Positions 1 to 11,812 of a stretch of DNA of 64,000 bases are shown here, one piece after another. This stretch comes from Tenrec ecaudatus (taxonomy: Eukaryota; Chordata; Mammalia; Afrosoricida; Tenrecidae), in assembly GCF_050624435.1 (NCBI RefSeq), contig NC_134536.1, forward strand, positions 130,850,758 through 130,914,757. Reading direction: 5' to 3'. How positions within the stretch are numbered: the first letter of the stretch is position 1; every line of letters begins with the position of its first letter. Made by a program: the position numbers and the translations under genes. The notes below the pieces were generated by a model, which did no database searches, was not told where the DNA came from, and was given only the letters and a program-made list of their open reading frames with translations.

Positions 1-692
1 ACTTTAAAAGGCGTAAAAGCAAATCATCATGCCCGGGAAGGCATGTTAAAGGATAGCTGCCATTCAAAGAGGAAGGAGCGCTAGCGGGGCGGTGGGTTGG
101 GCACGGGGAGGCGAGCTATTGTTGGCAGTTCATAACTACCAGCTGTTCTGCTGATGAGGTTGTCTACTTGCAGAGAGATGTTGTCTTTTCTGTCTGTTTT
201 TCATGTTTAAACTTCTATGTCCCTAAAGACTCAGAGTCCATGTCAGCTTTACTTTTCCTTTTTTAGCCATGCTGACCCATGTTTACATCCAAGGGGCAAG
301 GAATCAGCAAGGTAGGGAAGGCTGTGGGCCTTGTTGGCTTGTGTGTTTTCAGGGGAGCATATTAATGCAGTCGCACGGGCCATCTTAATAGATGAAATCA
401 GTAATCGCACCCTGGTAGCCCCACAAATGTGGTTCTCTATTTTGTACCCTCACTCCAGTCCTCCCTCTGAAACTTCTTATTCCTACTTTCTCCCTGTCCC
501 ACCATCTTTGGTCTCATCATATCTTTTGGTATAAAAAGCACTTTTAAAAAATGCTTCCTTTTTAAAATGTTACCTTATAATAACGGTGTCATTAAATACC
601 ATGTTTATTTTAATAAAATTAACTTTGCTAAGAATAATGTTTTCTGGTTTTGTCCATGCCTTGCTGTATTTAAGACAGTTGTCATTCTTTGT
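1..692. other. Non-coding flank, no gene seen
   Basis: A degraded SINE-like piece (wording similar to GTTCATAACTACCAGCTG) lies near 120-175 on the plus strand. The rest is AT-rich unique-looking sequence without a convincing exon. If the ADCY10-like gene is intact, this is inside one of its introns. Confidence 0.5.
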
Positions 693-3556
693 TTAAATCA
701 TTTTATTGAGGGTTCTTACAACTCGTTACAATCCATACATCAGTTGTATCTGGCATATTCGCACATATATTCCATCACTCTTTTCTAGAGTCATTGGTTT
801 TTTACTGATGCATAATATTCTCTGGTACGAATGTACCAAAGTTCATCTATTTCTCTGTCATTGGAGTTTTGGGTTGTTTCTATGTTTGCGCTGTTTGGAA
901 ACTGCTGCAATAAACATAGGTGTGCGTGTCTGTTCATGTTGTGTTATTTTTTAGGTTAGACACCCAGTAGAGAGATTGCAGAATCACAAAGTAATTATAT
1001 TTGCACTTGTATAAGGAAGTGTCACCCTGATTTTCATAATGGTCCTACAATTCTACAATTTCTCCAGCAACGTATGAGCTTTCCAATCTCTGCACACACT
1101 CCCGGCATTTATTTAATTTTGCAAAAAGTGATGTGAGGTAGTTTCATTAATTTGTATTTCTCTTACTGCTAATAAACATGGACATTTCTTGATACGGTTG
1201 TTGGCTGCCTGAATGTCACCTTTGGTAAACTGTCTATTCATGTAGTGTTCCCATTTTTTCATTGGGTTATTTGTATTTTTCTTAAGATGTTGTTCTGTAT
1301 AGATTTGGGAACTTAGCCTTTCATCTGATGTCTCTTTACTAAGTATTTTTTCCCCCTACCTGGGGGTTTTCTTTTAGCGCTTTTGATGTGCATAAATGTG
1401 TTTTCAGAAGATCCCACTCCTTTATTTTGTTTGAATATTATAAATTACTTGGTAGTATGCTTATGCCTTGAATTAGGGCCCTTCAGCTTATCCATTTTTT
1501 CTGTTATGGTCTCTATAAATATGTATATTAAGGTCTCTGGTCCATCTTGACTTCATTTTTTAGCACAGTGTGAGGCATGATCCTGTTTAATTCCTTTGCA
1601 GGTGAAGACCCAGTTTTCCTGGCTCCATTGTTTGAAAAGGGAATCTCTTCCCCATTTAATGTGTTTTAGTCTTTTATAAAAAATTGGTGTCTGTAGGTAT
1701 TTGGTTGATATTTCTGGGTTCTCAATTCTAATCCATTGGCCTTCATAGATGTTGTTGTACCAGTATCAAGGTGTTTTGATTACCAGAACTATGTACTAGG
1801 TTTTAGAGTCTAGAAGTGAAAGGTCTCCTACTTTGTTTTCATTTTCTAATAGTGTCTTCTTTACCCTGGGTTTCTTTCCTTTCCATATAAAGTTGATTAG
1901 TTAAGTGGAGAGCAAATGTTTTGAGAATGATGAGGGCAAAGAATGTACAGATGTGCTTTACACAACTGATGTATACATGGATTGTGATGAGTTGTATGAG
2001 TCCCTAATAAAATGTTTTAAAAAAATAAAGTTGATTAGTTTTTCCATTCCTTTGAAGAATTGTGGTGGGATTTGGATTGAAATTGGGTTGAACTTGTCAA
2101 GTATTTTTGGTAATATTGTCATTTTCTAGTCTACCTATCCAGGATGATAGCTTGTTCTATTTGTGTTTCTTTTGGTTTCTTGTAGGGATGTTGTGTGGTT
2201 TTCCTTGGATGTTTGTTTACCTGGTAAGATTTATTCCGAAATATTTTGTTTTGTGTAGTTATTGAGAATGGTATTTTTTGTGTCATCTTCTTTAATATAC
2301 AAGAATCCAAATGGTTTCTGTATGTTGATCTTAAAGGCTGCTATGCTGCCAAAATTTTCAATTACCTCCAGCATTAAAAATAATGGAATCTTTGGGGGTT
2401 TTTAGATACAGGATTATATCCTTTGCAAATAGTGTTGTTTCTTCTGTGCCAATGTGGATACCTCTAATACCTATTTGATGTTGTACAGCTCTGGGTAAAG
2501 CTTCCAGACCTATATAAAGGTGGGGATAAAGGGCAGCCCTTTCTGGTTCCTGTTTGAAGGGGGCCTGCTCTCAATTTCGCTGTACCGAGATGCTATTGGT
2601 TCCGCTTATGTGGCTTCTATCATGTTGAGGAATTTCTCTTCTATTCCTGTTTTACTGAGTGTTTTTATCAGAAATGGATGTTAAATTTTATCAAGTGCCT
2701 TTCATGTGTCATTTGACATAATCATATGGTTCTTATCCTTTATGTGAATTACATTGCTTTTGGGAATCCTTGTATATTTGGCACGAATCCCACTTGTGAT
2801 ATATTATTATTTTGATGCTTTGTTGAATTTTGTTGGCTAGAATTTTATTGAAGATCTTGGCAAATATATTAGAGATATTGGTTTATAATTTTAAATTCTG
2901 GTGATGTCTTTGCATGAGTTCTATATCAAAGTTATAGTTGCTTCATAAAATGATGTTGGTAGTATGCTGTCCATACACTGTGAAATAGTTCATGTAGAAT
3001 TGGCATTAACTCTTCCCTAGATGTTTGATAGGATTTAGTAGTGAAACAACTTTGATGTTGGGAGTTTTTATGACTAGATCTATTTCCTCTTGTTATAGGT
3101 TTGTTAGATTTTCTACATTAGTCTATGGCAATTTAGGTAAATATTGTTTTTAGATATTTATCCATTTCTTCTACATTTTCAAGTTTCTGGAATACAATTC
3201 TTCATAATACTTCTAAAAAAATCACATTTGGCTCGGTCATAATATCACTCATTTTATTTATTCATAGAATTTGCTTTTTTTCCCTTCAGTGGTTTATCCA
3301 TTTTGTTAAATTTTTTGTAAAGTACAATGAGTACTAGAGAAAAATGTAAATTTTGTTTTTGTTGAGTGGAATTTTATGTATTTAAGAGATCAAGGTGTGT
3401 TGATGCTTCTGTCTTTTTAAATTTTCTTTCTAGTTAATCCATCTTTGGTTGAAAACCTAGTATTATAGTCTATTTGTCTCTTCTCTTTTGTAAGAATTTA
3501 TTTTGAAGGTCTTTTTTGGGTGCATATACATTTATTACAATTTCTTGTTCAATTAA
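693..3556 (-). mobile_element. Decayed L1 LINE, 3' portion, antisense (part 1)
   Basis: Read on the minus strand, the stretch ends at about 693 with an L1-type AATAAAATGATTTAAAC tail. Going right it resembles the 3' half of mammalian L1 ORF2, for example the antisense wording around 870-920 (TGTTTCTATG, GCTGCAATAAACATAGG) and 1190-1260. It is riddled with stops and indels and encodes nothing intact. A young insertion at 1903-2024 and the elements at 3557-4911 interrupt it. It resumes at about 4912. Confidence 0.75.
1887..2040 (+). mobile_element. 5'-truncated L1 3' end with perfect 16-bp target-site duplication
   Basis: A 122-bp insertion (1903-2024) ends in AATAAAATG followed by an A-rich tail. 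It is flanked by identical 16-bp copies of ATAAAGTTGATTAGTT at 1887-1902 and 2025-2040. The body matches the last part of the L1 3' end also seen at 4230-4331 (ATGTGCTT, ACAC, GTATACATGGATTGTGAT). The perfect duplication marks a recent target-primed insertion into the older antisense L1. Confidence 0.85.
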
Positions 3557-4460
3557 AGGTTTCTTGCTGATGGTGCTGGCTATCAAAAGATAGAGCATCT
3601 GGGATCTTAAAGGCTTGAAGGTAAACAAGCGGCCACCTAGCTCAGAAGCAACAAAGACCTCAAGGAAGAAGCACACCGGCCTGTGTGATCTCGAAGTGTT
3701 GATGGTATCAGGTATCAAAGAACAAAAAGTCTTATCCTTGTGAATGAGGGGGTGGAGAGTATGGAGTGGAGATCCAAAGCCCATCTGTAGGCAACTGGAC
3801 ATCCCCTTACAGAAGGGTGTTGCAGGGAGGAGATCAGTCAGGGTACAGGGTAGCAATGATGAAACACAACTTTCCTCTAATCCTTTAATGCTTCCTGCAC
3901 CCACTCACCCCTCTACTATCATGATCCCAATTCTACCTTACAAATCTGGCTAGACCAGAGGATGTGCACTGGTACAGATCAGAGCTGGAAACAAAGGGAA
4001 TCCAGGACAGATAAACCCCTCAGGACCAATAATGAGTAGGGGCAGGGTAAGGTGGGGTAGAAAGAAGGAACTGATCACAAGGATCTACATATAACCCCCT
4101 CCCTGGGGGTTGGACAATAGAAAAGTGGGTGAAGGGAGATTCCAGACAGTGTAGGACATGACAAAATAATAACACTTTATAAATTATCAAGGGTATGTGA
4201 GGGGGGTGGCAAAAAAAGAGGAGCTGATACTAAGGGCTCAAGTAGAAAGCAAATGTACAAATGTGCTTGACACAATAGACGTATATATGGATTGTGATAA
4301 AAGTTGTATGAGCTCAAATAAAATTAGGAAAAAAGACTTGATAAAAAATTTTCTAAAATTGATTGTGGTGATGACTGCACAAATCTTAATATGATTGAAA
4401 GATTAGATTGTATGATATGTGAAGTACATACCAATAAAACTATTTTTTTAAATAGCGGTT
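3557..4460 (+). mobile_element. L1 3'UTR and tail, nested in older L1
   Basis: The sequence reads as an L1 3' end. It contains the TAGAGCATCTGGGATCTTAA region, the AAAGCCCATCTGTAGGCA stretch (also found inverted near 28.67 kb), and the GTATATATGGATTGTGATAA tail followed by AATAAAATTAGG at about 4318-4329. A second tail-like piece with CCAATAAAACTATTTTTTT follows up to about 4450, so this may be two fused L1 ends. No open coding frame is supported. Confidence 0.7.
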
Positions 4461-4507
4461 TCAATAGTTAAAAGAAAAAAATAAAGCTTTCTCATTACAT
4501 GGTGACT

Positions 4508-4911
4508 GTGGTAGTTACATAATTTCATGTCAACTTGATAAAGGGGTGGAGTCTAGCCTGTCAATCAGGTCACAGCCTGATGATGCTTCCTTGTGGATGT
4601 GGCCTTCTCAAGAAGACTCTGGGAACTCCCTTTTTCTCCCTGGAGGGCCACACTCTCTCTGCTTCACTTTCCTGCTTGGAGAGACGCTGTCACTGCCACT
4701 CAATCCAACAGACTTTTCACCCAACAGACTATGATCTTCCAGCATTTGGCATCATTGTGAGTGGGAAGAGGAATTTATAAACTAGTATTGGAAATATGGG
4801 CTAATATTGGACTTAGGGATTTGACCTGGACTGTGCTGGGATGTTTTCTCAATATATAATTACTTTGATATACAAGTGCCCCTAGAGTTCTCTAGTCAAC
4901 CCAAACTAACA
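4508..4911 (+). repeat. Unclassified interspersed repeat with short terminal inverted repeats, copy A
   Basis: The copy starts TGTGGTAGTTACATAAT and ends CTAGTCAACCCAAACTAACA. Its left end is the inverse of the right end of copy B (13362-13824), giving a 10-bp terminal inverted repeat TGTGGTAGTT / AACTACCACA. It shares long blocks with copy B, such as CAGACTTTTCACCCA versus CAAGACTTTTCACCCA, and GGAATTTATA. No coding capacity and no clear target-site duplication were seen. It could be a MITE or a solo LTR; I could not assign a family. Confidence 0.65.
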
Positions 4912-5500
4912 GTCAGCAGTTACTACCTTCTTTGTCTTTCATTATGCCATTTACTTTGACATCTATTCTTATGCCTGGGATGGATTTTTTCCCACCCTTT
5001 GACTTTGTCTTTTATTTAAAGTGTGTATCTTGTAAGCAACATATTAATGGTTTTTGTTTTGTTAGTCTTTGTTTCTTAACTTGTGAATTTAATCTATTTA
5101 CATCAAGTATTGTTATTGTTCAATATAGTTGTTGGCGTCATTTTATTTTTTAATGGTGATATTTATTTCAATTTTCACAATTTTTGTTATATTCTTTATT
5201 GGTTGTCATCAGAACCTTCTTTTTCTGTTTTATCTGTTTAACTTGCCAATATGATTTTCTTTTTTGTTTTGTTGAAGCTTTAACTTTTTGAGGGTTGCTT
5301 ACTTTTTTGGTGGTTTTCTTTCCACAAATGATTTGTTGTCTTTTGCAGTTTGGTATCTTCTCAGTTTGACTATTTATTGTTTACTGTTCCATTTAAAAAA
5401 ATCTTCACCGCAGTGTTCTGTGATTCCTTGCTTTGATGTATTTAGTTCTATTTTCGTTTGAGTATTAAAGAGCATGTGTTTTCCGTAATAATTTTGTTAG
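4912..5500 (-). mobile_element. Decayed L1 LINE, antisense (part 2)
   Basis: This is the continuation of the antisense ORF2-like sequence after the nested insertions. The wording CCTTCTTTGTCTTTC, followed by the AACATATTAATGG stretch near 5040, matches antisense L1 ORF2 further upstream in the element. The element fades out near 5.5 kb. Confidence 0.6.
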
Positions 5501-6499
5501 AAAAGGAGTTTAAAGTCTTGGAAACCCTGTATTGGGTCACTAAGAATTGGAATACGCTCGATGGCAATGGTTTGGTTTTGGTACAAACATAAAGCACATA
5601 ATTTCTCTAAGAGACAATCATTAAGAATATTTTATTTTTGAAATAAAATGCATATAAACATGCTGCAGTGAAGTAATATTACTTGGTATGGCTCTTTTAT
5701 CCATAATTTTATAATTTCCAACAAGTGACTGGGTGGGCTCATGCAATTAAAGTGTAAAAGTCTGATGAGTTATGCCATTTTCCTGGGCATAAATTGAGCC
5801 ATTTCAGAAGCAAGAACAGAGGGAATCCTGCCATTGACAAGATCCTTTCATGAAGTGGTAGTGACAGTTAAGGCAGAGGCCAAGGCACCAAGACGATGAG
5901 ATAGCACAGGCTTCTTGGTCCATGGAATGAGTAAAGTTGAATGCTTTGGGGCGGTAGTGAGCTACGGTATTTAAAAGCACTAAAGGAGTTTTATAACATG
6001 TGCAGGGCAGACCATGGGCCACACAGCTATGATACTGGGGGAGAGAGACAAGTATGCCAACATGGCTGAGCAGAGGTGCTTCAGACAAAAGGACCCTATC
6101 CTTGAAGTTCTAATCCTGATGTGTGGTTAACTTCCATAATCATGAATGATGTCTGTGAGTCCTATGTGGCCAAGCCCCAGATTACTAACTCCATTGTGGA
6201 AGGGACAGTTGGTGTTAGAATGGGGTAAAGGGAGTTAGCAGTTGGAAGCATATCTGACTTGGGTCTCATAGGCACCAACCTTGCACAGATGTAGAGTCGA
6301 TTCTTCTTCTCCTTTGTTTAGCCATAGTAAGTCGGATGGGACCCCCACACCCTTTCTTAAAAGAGAGTCCCTCCACCCCTTTCTGAATGCTGAGTCAAAA
6401 GGACACAGTGGTAAATAGAGGCAAAGAACTAGCCTCCCCTTCAAAGGCGTCCTCTCACAGCCCCCAGCACCACACCTTGTTTCCATACAAGTCACTCAC
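5501..6499. other. Putative intron 2 of the ADCY10-like gene; no exon found
   Basis: This lies downstream of exon 2 on the minus strand. A SINE tail fragment is at about 5548-5585 (CTCGATGGCAATGGTTTGG). The stretch 5800-6110 is unique-looking and of balanced composition, but neither strand gives a frame I recognise. I looked here for the next ADCY10 exon, which should carry an equivalent of the GGDILKFAGDALLALW segment, and did not find it. Confidence 0.5.
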
Positions 6500-6604
6500 G
6501 CTCCACGATGTCACTAATGTAATAACTGAAGATGTGGGCCAGTTTGTCCATGTCATGCTCCGACTTGCACGTGAGGCTGAATCTGTCCATTAACGCTGTA
6601 AACC
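6500..6604 (-). CDS. ADCY10L: ADCY10-like soluble adenylyl cyclase, exon 2 (partial gene)
   Basis: Reading right to left, an acceptor TTGCTTTCTTGGTCAG precedes the exon and a donor GTGAGT follows at 6499. The exon is 105 nt and joins exon 1 in phase: the last G of exon 1 plus GG gives glycine. It encodes FTALMDRFSLTCKSEHDMDK then LAHIFSYYISDIVE, which aligns without gaps to the start of the first class III cyclase domain (C1) of ADCY10, FTAMTEKFSS... through ...ISAIVE. No stop or frameshift is present. The next exon is not found, so the gene continues off the left edge or is broken there. In human the corresponding locus beside NFYA is the pseudogene ADCY10P1; here the 5' end is open. Transcription is not shown by the sequence. 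Confidence 0.8.
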
Positions 6605-7067
6605 CTGACCAAGAAAGCAAAATTGACCAGACGTTAGCTGCCCATCAGACCAGTGTAAGGAAAGCTGGGGCTGAGTAACCCCATTATTCTTTTAACACAG
6701 TGTCACTTAGAAAGCAAAGTGCTCAGGGGCAGGCAGGCAGGCTGCTGCTTCTGGAAATTCAGATTCCCAAGGACCACTCTGTCCACGTTTCCAGGAGCTG
6801 CAGTCAGGGAAGATTCACCCATCAGCACCCTTTTTATCGGAAATCGGTTTCCTCTCTCCCATTACCCTGGTAAGGCTCTCAGACCAAGAGAAGGTTTCCC
6901 ACTTGAGAGGGAGAAACCACCTACAAAGGGATGGGTCAACGTTTTGCTAGGGAAAACTCATGAATTTCTTGAAGATAGGCACCTGCTCTTACTCATCAAC
7001 ACACACATGCCAGATAATAAACGCTCTCATTAAGGGGTGGGGAATGGCTGGCCCTTGGGCCTACAAT

Positions 7068-7275
7068 CTGCAAACCAAACTCACTGCCATTTGGTTCTGA
7101 CCCATAGCTACCATACAGGGTAGGATGGAACTGCTTCTGTTGAGCTTCAGAGATTTTAACTCTTCAGGGCATAGGGAAGCCTCATCTTTCTCCGGCAGAG
7201 TGGCCAAGTGGTTTGAACTGCTGACCTTGTGGTTAGTAGCGTAACACTTAAACTACTCCAATAGCAGGGCAGCCC
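7068..7275 (-). repeat. AfroSINE-like SINE
   Basis: This antisense copy reads AAACTCACTGCCATTTGG at its 3' end and GAACTGCTGACCTTGTGG over the tRNA-like B box. It lies in intron 1 of the ADCY10-like gene. Confidence 0.75.
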
Positions 7276-7559
7276 ATCAGACCACGTTATACCGGCGGAA
7301 TCATCACCACCAGCTAACATCACATGGCTCGCCTACGTGAAGCAGTTACAGGTCTCACATGAAATGTTTGACCAGTTTGGTCGGGACACATTTTAAACAT
7401 CCATATAGCTCGCGGCAGGGAAAAAAAAAAAAGATTCCCCGCTCCTGCGCCTGACATTTGTCGAATGAATACGACTTCAAGCAGCTACTGTTATCGGATG
7501 TGGGCAGTTTTGACCACGGTGCATTTACTGCCAAACGCGCAGGATGGGAAGGAAACCTG

Positions 7560-8130
7560 GGTTCAAAGGGAGCCTTGTGGGCCCGCGACGGTGCCTTCCC
7601 CGAAGTCCAATCGTCCCTAAGGGGCTCCTCCGGGTCGGAAAACGGCGACTCGAGGTTTCCTGGGGCGGCGGCGCGCAGTGGTTCGCCAGGGACCAGGCCC
7701 GTAACCGCCGCGGCCGCCCGAGCTAAGGCCCAACGGCCGCGCCTTCCCTCGTCCTCACCCGTCACATGGACGCCCAGCAGGACTCCCTGGGCCGTGGCGA
7801 GCTCGGGTTCCGACTCCCCGGGCTTCCGGAAGACCAGCAGGTCGGGAAGCAGCGCCGCCAACCGGGCCTCCACGGGCCACAGAGGCGGCGCCGCCTCCCG
7901 CTTGCCGGGCGCCATGGCGGCGGCGGGCTGCCCGCCAGACTACTGGAAGCGGCGGCGGCGGCGGCTGCGGACGCGTCGCCAGCCCTCTTGCAGCAGCCAA
8001 TCCGCGCAGCCCCCTTAGGAACGCGCCAATCGAGAGCGGCGGCGGGGCCGGCGCGCCTGCGTGACCCCGCCCTCCCGCCGGCGCCCCGCCCCCGGGCGGG
8101 GCCGCGCCCTCCCGCGAACGCTAGCGTTAT
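7560..8130. promoter_or_regulatory. CpG island / promoter of the ADCY10-like gene
   Basis: The interval is very GC- and CpG-rich and surrounds the first coding exon. Two CCAAT boxes (7997-8001 and 8026-8030) lie about 80-115 bp upstream of the minus-strand start codon. No TATA box is evident. The unmethylated-looking CpG content is evidence of a germline-active promoter and argues that this is not merely an old dead copy. Confidence 0.65.
7759..7915 (-). CDS. ADCY10L: ADCY10-like soluble adenylyl cyclase, exon 1 (start codon)
   Basis: The start codon at 7915-7913 sits in a near-ideal context (GCCGCCGCCATGG). The exon encodes 52 residues and one base, then a donor GTGAGG. Residues 12-52 (LWPVEARLAALLPDLLVFRK ... 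GVLLGVHVT) align to human ADCY10 from WPIVRIAAHLPDLIVYG through GVLMFVDIS. This identifies a soluble, bicarbonate- and calcium-responsive adenylyl cyclase relative making cAMP from ATP. One difference is striking: the aspartate corresponding to human Asp47, a catalytic metal ligand, is His50 here (codon CAT). If the alignment is right, metal binding at one of the two Asp positions is lost, so the product may be catalytically impaired, or the gene may be drifting toward the pseudogene seen in human. ADCY10L is a descriptive symbol. Confidence 0.8.
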
Positions 8131-8354
8131 TTCTGGCGGGCTTGAAAGGTTCCGGTGAAGTTTCTACGGGAAGGCTCATCACCCGTGAGGAGTATCGGCA
8201 GGGTGGCCTCTCCCCCGCACCTCCAGAGTAGAAACTCGGTCTCTGAAGTTAGTTGGAGTAATTCCTTTGGGAAAAACCGGAGTACAGCAAATTTGGATCG
8301 CTGTTTTGGCGTTTGCTTTCAATCGTTAGGCTGTCACATCCCTTTTCCTGTGCA

Positions 8355-8512
8355 CAGGCGCCCCGATGACATCGTGGTTGCGCGTTGGACTGCTAACTGC
8401 AGTATCACCAGTTCGAAACCACGAGCCCCTTCGCGGGAGAAAGAGGTGGTGGGGCCGCTCTGCCCTTGCCTGTCAGGTGGCTGAGTCGGAAACTACTTCA
8501 TAGCAGTGAGTT
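8355..8512 (+). repeat. AfroSINE-like SINE
   Basis: A sense copy, with CAGTTCGAAACCACGAGCC as the B-box-like core, GGGAGAAAGAGGTGG downstream, and a GCAGTGAGTTTGGATTGG 3' end. Confidence 0.7.
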
Positions 8513-8650
8513 TGGATTGGAGTCCCAGAGTCAACCCAGTAGCGGTGAGTTTGGTTTGGAATTGTTCTGCCCGTTCAGCAAAAAGTAAATCCAAGTGGTC
8601 TGCATTGTTTGTACATCTACCACACCTCGGACACCAACTGCTATCTTTTG

Positions 8651-9270
8651 TGGAGCCCTGGTGGCACTGTGAGGTGCTCAGGCCGCTGCTAATGACTGAT
8701 TGCAAACACCTCCCACCCACCAGCCCTTTGGCTGCAAACTTGGAAGCTCAGACACTTTTGTCTTTAGCAGCTATGAATTTTTACCCACGGAATCACTATA
8801 CATTATAATTAGTACTCCAGTAGGAAGACCAGGAGCCCTGGTAGCATGGTGGGTTGAGTCAGGCTGCTAACCATAAGGTCAGCAGTTCAAAACCACCAGC
8901 TGTTCCGCAGAAGAGGACTTTCAACTCCAGTATTTAGCTTTCAACACCCACAGGGGTGGCGCTTCCCTGCCCTTTGGGGCCATCGTTGAGTTAGAATCAA
9001 CTATGTGGCACTGAGCTTATCTTCAACCCACCGTTGCCAGAAATCTCAACGTAGATGGGTCAAGAAAAGGAAGAGTAAGATATATAGCCAAGAAGCCCAG
9101 AGACTGACTGTCCATAGGGACTGAGATGGCTTAAGACCACTCAGCAGGATCCTCTGAAGAAAGGCCTGACCACCTACTTCAGAGAAAGCACACCCATTGA
9201 GAACCCTATGGAGTTCATCAGTCATCCCCTCTGACACACTGTAAGCCAGAACCGACTCGGGCTTGCTTTG
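8651..9270 (+). repeat. Cluster of three AfroSINE-like fragments
   Basis: Successive plus-strand pieces begin at 8651 (GGAGCCCTGGTGGCAC), at 8831 (GAGCCCTGGTAGCATGG, nearly full length to about 9020) and near 9090. The last carries the CTGAAGAAAGGCCTGACCA variant and ends GTAAGCCAGAACCGACTCGG. They fill the gap between the ADCY10-like promoter and the 3' end of NFYA. Confidence 0.7.
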
Positions 9271-9403
9271 GTTTCTATTGTTTAGTCCACAGGGATCACA
9301 CATGGGCCAGTCCAGATTCCAATACTGACAAGCATAATTTACTGAGAAACACAAGGGATGTAGACACTTCAAAATTCAACTTGCTCTTCAGTAGTTTTAC
9401 AAA

Positions 9404-11812
9404 TTTATTTTAAAAAATAACAAGTGCAATGACATCAATGATTGATCACCTGTACTGCCCCTACTCCTGTGGGAAAAGCCTTCTGTAGAGTTGAGTCCCA
9501 AAAGTAAATCAAGACATTATCATCAGGCACCCAGTAACGAGAAGATGCTGTTGGCCCAGTGGTATACACACTGACATGTTCAATGTACCATTACAATTAA
9601 AAAGCTCAACATGGACAATTATCTGGAAAAGAGTGCACCAAAGAGGTGAAATACTATGCATGACACCAATTATTCATTTATCCATCCACTCTGTGTTCAG
9701 TAGTAATCACTACAGTCACGAGGACGAAGATGTAAAAACTTCTAGTAACAAAAGAAAAACACCAAACTTCAGACACCCCCACCGCCCCCGCAGCTGTGGG
9801 CTAAAATGACCACAATAAAGGGTCACATGTTCTCAGAAATGCAGTGATGGAGTTAACAATTTAAGCATTTTAGATTGAAAAAAAAAACACAACCTAAACT
9901 CACTCGTTTTCCCACCCCATGCAAAAAAAAAAAAAATCAAAATTTAAGAATGAGGTTGAAAAAAATGAGGTTGATCTTATGTACAAACTTACAGACACAA
10001 ATAAATAGCAGTTTTGAATGGTTCTTGGTTTAAGCACTAGAGATTACATTTGAGGAATTTCTGAAACCCTGCATTTTAAAGATTCCCAACTAATGAATAT
10101 TAACTCATTGTTCTTAGAAATAGAGCCATCAAATCAACAAATAGGGGTATGTGTGAGGGGGAATACTGAATAAAGGTATTATTTGTAACCTATCTGACGA
10201 GCCACAAGCTTCTAGTGGAGTCTACCAAAGGGCCAGCCCTCCTGACAATGTAAGAAGCCAGGACAAATGACTAGATTCCAGGGACTAGGAAGAGTTCCCC
10301 CTTCCTATTCCTTTGCATAGCTCTGTCATCTCTACTTGTACCATGACGACCCTCTCCTCTGTGACTTTTCCTTTAGGGCGCTCACTCCTCTCCCTCTCAA
10401 TACAGTTAGAGTGAAGTTCAACGACAACAGCGTTTCCTTCCTTCTACAGTAGTCGGGAACTCTTGGAGGCTCATCGCCATTCTCCCAGGGTTCACCCTTT
10501 GAGAGAAGAACTAGCTTGCGGAGTCACAACCCACTCCTGGAACTGTGGCTCAGTTCTTGCCCTGCCAGGCATTTCTGTCTCGTCTGGGGTGTTCCTCCAA
10601 GTTCAGAGGCAGCAGTGTGGACACACTTTTCTGCACAAGGGCTGTAGAGACGGGAAAAGGGACTTGGGGAGACTCAGCACTATGGGAAGAATGAGAAGAC
10701 AATTTGCTCTTGGTGGCCTGCTCAGCACAGGGCAGACTGCCAAGGACTGTGTTTCAGACTTCACCCTTTTCACACTGATGCTAGGTGTGAATGCAAATGG
10801 TTTTCTTCAGCTTAATGACTCCCCCTAGACATCGACAGGAAGACCTGGAACAGCATGCTATGTGACAACATGTGCATGAGTAGACAGAAGGCTTTCCTTC
10901 TCAGAGGCTGAACACACACCAGCTCTTCTACTTCCCAAATGCTAGCCCCACACCCAGGATCGGAAATCTCTACTTCTGCTGTGGGGAAACTACTACAAAT
11001 GTCCTCAAGCACTCCAGCATAGCAACTGCATCATCATTTTGTTTCCCACGTCAAGGTCCAATACCCTCTAAGTATGTCTGAGAGCTGCCGTAGTTTAGAA
11101 GCATGATCCAGAGGACCTCTCAGCAGACCACCAACTTGTCAACGTGAAAGGAAAGAGATTCCGCGATGGAGTTTTAAGTGCTTAAAACTCTTTTCTTGGC
11201 TTGTGTCCAAAACCACCAATCTGCCATTTGGGGAGACCGAGATTCTTATTACCACAGAGTAGATGAAGGTACCTCAGAGAATTTATTTTCATAAAAAAGG
11301 ATGGAACTTCCTAGCTTGGAAGCCAGTTCTGCATACAGCTGTCCATTCTGTTAGATGGAAATCACCACCAGAGGGAGGGATGTGTTCTAGTTAAGTTCCT
11401 GTGAGGGTGGGGGAGGAGTATGGCTGTGGGCTCCCGCCTGCAGTTAGGTTAACAAAGCTGTTCTCCTCGGCTGAGATGGCTGGCTGGCTTTGTCAGTCAC
11501 GGTAAGTGCTGTATTTGGTGCTGCTGAGCTGGCAGGGATCCCTTGCATCATCGAAATCCACGAAATGTCAATGTCATCAACAGTCTGAAACCAGTCCTGA
11601 CTGAAGGGTGAGACAAAGGCTTTCAGCTTCAATTTGCCAGACAAAGCGGCAAGTATAATACTGAGCCACTTATCAAAAGCTAAGTGGCCTCTGTCCTGCC
11701 GAAAAGGACAGAATATGATCATGAGTGCCCTCAACTCTCTGAAGAGTTGACCGATTTCCTGGATCCGTGGCAAGGAACATGGCCTTCATCAACTGCTTCA
11801 TGTGACCCAAGG
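9404..11812 (-). other. NFYA: NFYA 3' untranslated region with candidate poly(A) signals
   Basis: About 2.4 kb follow the stop codon before the last likely signal. AATAAA on the minus strand occurs at 11282-11287 (about 0.53 kb after the stop) and at 9404-9409 (about 2.4 kb after it). I infer a short and a long 3'UTR form. SINEs are absent from the interval and dense just beyond 9.27 kb, consistent with constrained transcript sequence. Cleavage positions are not proven. Confidence 0.6.

Follow-up and report, generated by a model that had tools for sequence, protein, structure and literature searches.

A soluble adenylyl cyclase paralogue of Tenrec ecaudatus with an open frame, probably retained and catalytically dead, apparently at the ADCY10P1 locus

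The window analysed here is a stretch of 64,000 nucleotides from the Tenrec ecaudatus genome (contig NC_134536.1, termed C65 below), and it holds the first two coding exons of a relative of the soluble adenylyl cyclase (sAC) gene ADCY10, the remainder of which extends beyond the left edge of the window (Table 1). When joined in phase 1, the two exons encode a peptide of 87 residues (MAPGKREAAPPLWPVEARLAALLPDLLVFRKPGESEPELATAQGVLLGVHVTGFTALMDRFSLTCKSEHDMDKLAHIFSYYISDIVE), which across the join reads GVLLGVHVTGFTA where human sAC has GVLMFVDISGFTA, such that His50 lies opposite human Asp47. The original prediction, made from the letters of the window, had described two exons with clean splice sites and matching phase, an ideal start context, a CpG-island promoter and a His at the equivalent of Asp47, and each of these features was recovered, the alignment agreeing on His50. 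In addition, exon 2 has the length and phase of its counterpart in the ADCY10 gene proper of this genome. All four PDB sequences hit by the 87-residue peptide belong to human ADCY10 (lowest E 5.8e-9), and a search of the genome with it gave a significant match at this locus only, four of the six rows being on other contigs with E of at least 0.65, while a Pfam search with the exon 1-2 peptide alone returned no match.

Table 1. Features of the window and of the adjoining sequence (numbers without a contig name are window coordinates).
Feature	Position	Strand	Details
Window	C65:130850758-130914757		genome of 3.9 Gb
Coding exon 1	7915-7759	minus	157 nt; ATG 7915-7913, context GCCGCCATGG; donor GTGAGG, phase 1
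Coding exon 2	6604-6500	minus	105 nt; acceptor CAG, donor GTGAGT
His50 codon, CAT	7768-7766	minus	equivalent of the metal-binding Asp47 of human sAC
Intron 2, beginning	1..6499	minus	exon 3 is beyond the left edge, at -1641 to -1679
Far end of gene model	about -38941 (C65:130811816)	minus	
CpG-island promoter region	7601..8160		GC 0.745, CpG o/e 1.05; CCAAT motifs at 7997 and 8026
Two NFYA exons	14438-14328, 12863-12792	minus	matching a short NFYA peptide at 97% and 100%
TREM2 exons	C65:130788272-130789677 (L012)	opposite to paralogue	left of paralogue
TREML-like V-domain exon	C65:130801874-130802173 (L013)	opposite to paralogue	left of paralogue

Interspersed repeats are seen at about 7063-7270 and, by eye, at 8340-9000, and part of the former recurs at 72-80% identity in at least 39 other places in the genome. 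Both look like tRNA-derived afrotherian SINEs. Direct-repeat families of 40 or more bases were not found in 5500-9500, and scans of the window against Rfam at gathering threshold and for tRNAs (ARAGORN, bacterial code) gave no match.

The rest of the gene was assembled after adding 100 kb to the left of the window, by means of a spliced protein-to-DNA aligner written for this purpose and with human ADCY10 as the query, which is identical to the PDB sequence over residues 1-469. The alignment runs through 30 exons in order without a stop or a frameshift and contains 549 identities among 1457 aligned residues. Its score of 2201 is far above chance, since the opposite strand, the reversed protein and another stretch of the same strand gave scores of 50, 58, and 50, respectively. 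With its ends extended by hand, to the ATG on one side and to the donor closing exon 30 on the other, the model spans 4512 nt, and the open frame seen in the first two exons continues through C1 and C2 and over all 1504 codons. The 29 introns (one of which borders an exon that is in doubt) comprise 28 of the GT-AG type and one of the GC-AG type, and the GC content by codon position is 0.574/0.388/0.661, compared with 0.454 in the introns. After exon 20 the model is uncertain, as two queries led to different models near human residues 1003-1025. For the final two exons of ADCY10, which cover human residues from about 1494 to 1610, the human and own C-terminal queries gave, among the matches listed, only chance-like pieces, and hence the 3′ end of the paralogue is either undefined or lost.

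The genome's own ADCY10 provided the yardstick. A search of the genome with human ADCY10, in which 29 of the 45 first-look candidates were scored, pointed to two loci among the matches listed, with 24 of 30 on contig C1 and six on C65. The C1 gene, which is the own ADCY10, was rebuilt as 31 model exons that match human ADCY10 at 1233 of 1610 positions, although no counterpart could be placed for a small exon around human residues 1003-1025. An exon-intron structure in common is a mark of the sAC gene family, and the phases of the two genes agree in all 27 of the exons compared (exons 20-22, where the model is uncertain, and the final two were excluded), with lengths that are equal in 16 and differ by multiples of three in 11. 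The aligner penalizes frameshifts and so partly favors such a pattern of lengths, but it does not favor the coincidence of splice sites. Identity between the two proteins is only about 38% overall, which shows that the duplication is old, and identity by codon position is 0.509/0.642/0.383. Judged by this comparison of sequences, the C65 gene is an old paralogue of ADCY10 and not a near copy of it.

Conservation of the paralogue is highest in its cyclase domains, with an identity to human ADCY10 of 48.6% in C1 and 49.2% in C2, as opposed to 28.1% in the linker and 31-37% in other regions, and with an identity to the own ADCY10 outside C1/C2 of 28-39%. Positions that are invariant in ADCY10 are kept at 192 of 364 sites in C1/C2 and at 221 of 553 in residues 731-1490 (Fisher p 1.5e-4). 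The paralogue contains the tandem class III cyclase domains C1 and C2, followed by the P-loop NTPase, that characterize the sAC family. Human sAC chains in the PDB match its residues 13-468 with an E of 8e-135, and a Pfam search of the first 768 of its 1504 residues found Guanylate_cyc (PF00211, E 2.5e-12) in two stretches and AAA_16 (E 1.6e-7) at 32.4 bits, just below the cut-off of 32.6. The Walker A (GGKGYGKS) and Walker B (LIFLIDEAQ) motifs of the NTPase are intact. The same search with the first 603 of the 1610 residues of the own ADCY10 found Guanylate_cyc alone, and neither locus was among the 94 matches listed by a genome-wide search with PF00211.

At the active and bicarbonate sites the picture is one of replacement. 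Eleven positions were examined and the own ADCY10 keeps all of them, while the paralogue keeps five, namely Lys144, Val167, Met337, Thr405, and Arg416. The remaining six have changed (Asp47 to His50, Lys95 to Asn98, Asp99 to Asn102, Arg176 to Gln179, Lys334 to Arg335, and Asn412 to Ser414), and among the nine catalytic and bicarbonate side-chain residues six differ and three are kept. The original prediction spoke of a single clean change in an open frame; the open frame stands and the single change does not. Given a frame that is open over 1504 codons and the loss of the second aspartate as well, His50 is no lone recent hit. With the roles of the residues as given in two papers (PMC12867704, Table 1; PMC12250328), the paralogue has neither of the two aspartates that coordinate the catalytic ions in sAC (Asp47 and Asp99), nor the Lys95 and Arg176 that bind bicarbonate in mammals. 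In the excerpted part of one of them, active non-mammalian sACs are also without one bicarbonate residue, the sea urchin enzyme having Asn in place of Arg176 and the salmon enzyme Asn at the Lys95 position and Arg at the Asn412 position, with both aspartates present (PMC12867704). Asn98, encoded by exon 3, is thus the state found in salmon at this position, and may represent the ancestral condition and not a loss. Since salmon sAC keeps both aspartates despite its other changes, the absence of both metal ligands from the paralogue is a strong sign of inactivity.

A targeted loss of catalytic residues was also considered and dropped, as three of nine kept, set against the 192 of 364 ADCY10-invariant positions kept in C1/C2, is not a loss above background. 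An active enzyme would nevertheless be expected to retain both aspartates. It might be argued that the cyclase head keeps a nucleotidyl cyclase or other nucleotide-dependent activity in which His50 and Asn102 alter the use of metals, given that Lys144, Thr405, and Arg416 are kept, that C1-C2 is the best conserved part of the protein and that histidine can bind transition metals. This is highly improbable considering that both replaced aspartates are ion ligands in sAC (excerpts of PMC12867704 and PMC12250328) and that the adenine-binding Lys334 is an Arg in the paralogue.

Two options had been offered by the original prediction, a constrained non-catalytic paralogue or a gene that is just beginning to decay. 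Pseudogenes are recognized by stops or indels that break the frame, and the 1504 codons contain none of either. The open frame and the lost second aspartate favor the first option, while the unrecognized 3′ exons and several weak donors count against it. In neutral simulations (two-thirds transitions, 0.1 indels per substitution, 29 introns, n = 300 per level), where the indel rate and a frameshift share of 0.8 are assumptions of ours, 5% of the runs remained intact at a divergence of 0.005 substitutions per site and not a single one did at 0.01, from which it follows that selection persists or ended very recently. Compared with ADCY10, dN is 0.61 and dS is 3.4 (NG86), values of dS having been obtained for two of four region sets, and with dS saturated the dN/dS ratio tells little about recent selection.

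Decay would therefore have to mean that selection was lifted less than about 0.005-0.01 substitutions per site ago, leaving the frame open while the 3′ exons and some splice sites had gone, and we regard this as possible although rather unlikely. In keeping with decay, no match was recognized for the final two exons of ADCY10, and when splice sites were scored with an approximate position weight matrix made for this analysis, four of 27 donors of the paralogue (exons 4, 7, 26, and 27) fell below zero as against none of 27 in ADCY10, and the donor of exon 18 is GC. The difference in donors overall (mean 6.0 versus 8.3) is, however, not significant (Wilcoxon p 0.11), and the acceptors are alike (6.5 versus 7.1; 26 pairs, p 0.35). 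Moreover, the exon 7 and 27 donors of ADCY10 are themselves non-consensus, though stronger (3.3 and 3.6, compared with −5.1 and −7.6 in the paralogue). The replacement of six catalytic or bicarbonate residues in a protein whose Walker motifs are intact fits an old loss of catalysis better than a recent release from selection. Decay does agree with the excerpted text of Farrell et al. (2008; PMC2532759), in which, for human, dog and other mammals, a second locus related to sAC "appears to be a pseudogene", and in which it was undetected in mouse and rat.

As to the donors themselves, those of exons 7 and 26 in the own ADCY10 (C1:179963507 and C1:179890335) read GTACTT and GTATTT, and the corresponding GTTCTT and GTATTA of the paralogue are weaker still. 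Non-consensus donors shared by ADCY10 and its C65 counterpart may relate to the alternative splicing of sAC.

NFYA is the right-hand syntenic anchor and lies on the same strand as the paralogue, with the TREML-like exon and TREM2 on the other side (Table 1). In the human gene order this is the place of ADCY10P1, between NFYA and the TREM cluster, and on that footing the proposed correspondence with the human ADCY10P1 site holds, the C65 paralogue apparently sitting at the locus that bears this name in human. A long open frame at 47133-46549 (minus strand) reads by eye like APOBEC2 (HATNHAEEAFFNTILPACDPALRYNVTWYVSSSPCAAC), and this fits the gene order of human 6p21.1. Corrected protein distances put the paralogue 3.8-6.4 times as far from ADCY10 as the human and own ADCY10 are from each other, which at equal rates would put the duplication far before the placental mammals, while a faster paralogue would make it younger. 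ADCY10 (1q24) and ADCY10P1 (6p21) would lie in segments paired by early vertebrate genome duplication, and from the protein distance the pair could be as old as those duplications. We infer that the second sAC-related locus of Farrell et al., for which the passage gives no map position (PMC2532759), is the one described here.

In one excerpted report ADCY10P1 is treated as an enhancer RNA, a role claimed for human ovarian cancer (PMC9107640), and the locus might accordingly matter mainly as transcribed RNA or as an enhancer, with an open frame that is incidental. This is improbable, as an incidental frame would hardly be open over 30 exons with a bias between codon positions and with exon lengths that change by multiples of three.

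Mammalian sAC has been described as a single gene (PMC2532759), and its loss leads to male infertility in mouse and human according to an excerpt of PMC11855772. The excerpted text of a study that reports sAC synteny not to be conserved among vertebrate groups does not use the word "paralog" (PMC6660944), and neither this word nor "pseudogene" occurs in the main text of PMC12867704. Among the papers listed by full-text literature searches, none was noticed that describes a second sAC gene as intact or as non-catalytic.

Taken together, the evidence makes it fairly probable that the C65 gene is an intact, old and catalytically dead paralogue of sAC (a pseudo-sAC), apparently at the ADCY10P1 locus, that has been retained and is not broken. 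Its protein would fold as a C1-C2 pseudo-heterodimer unable to hold the complex of two metals and ATP, and consequently no cAMP would be made. If translated, it may act as a non-catalytic scaffold or switch whose state is changed by the NTPase module, the cyclase-like head binding a partner, possibly sAC itself or a partner of sAC, in place of turning over ATP. In this lineage, selection would have preserved the frame at least up to very recent times, other mammals having lost the gene. Whether mammals inherited both a catalytic ADCY10 and an ancient cAMP-silent partner with a cyclase fold and an NTPase motor, so that ADCY10P1 is the relic of a distinct gene that was lost separately in several lineages (those of human, dog, mouse, and rat if the 2008 report is followed) and kept here, is a proposition that we hold to be evenly balanced. 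If the retained second sAC is indeed dead, it would be a natural pseudoenzyme probe of the roles of the sAC NTPase and C-terminal region without cAMP, and which mammals kept it, and what vanished alongside it in the others, would become directly testable.

The paralogue resembles ADCY10, both human and the own C1 copy, in its tandem C1-C2 cyclase domains, its P-loop NTPase and its long C-terminal region, and differs from it in an identity of about 38%, in the six replaced residues and in the last two exons, which were not found in the paralogue. With ADCY10P1 it shares its place between NFYA and the TREM cluster in the human order. The second sAC-related locus in the excerpt of PMC2532759 is an apparent pseudogene, whereas the frame on C65 is open. 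The sAC enzymes of salmon and sea urchin are like the paralogue in having a neutral residue at one or both bicarbonate positions, but they are active and keep both metal-binding aspartates, of which the paralogue has neither.
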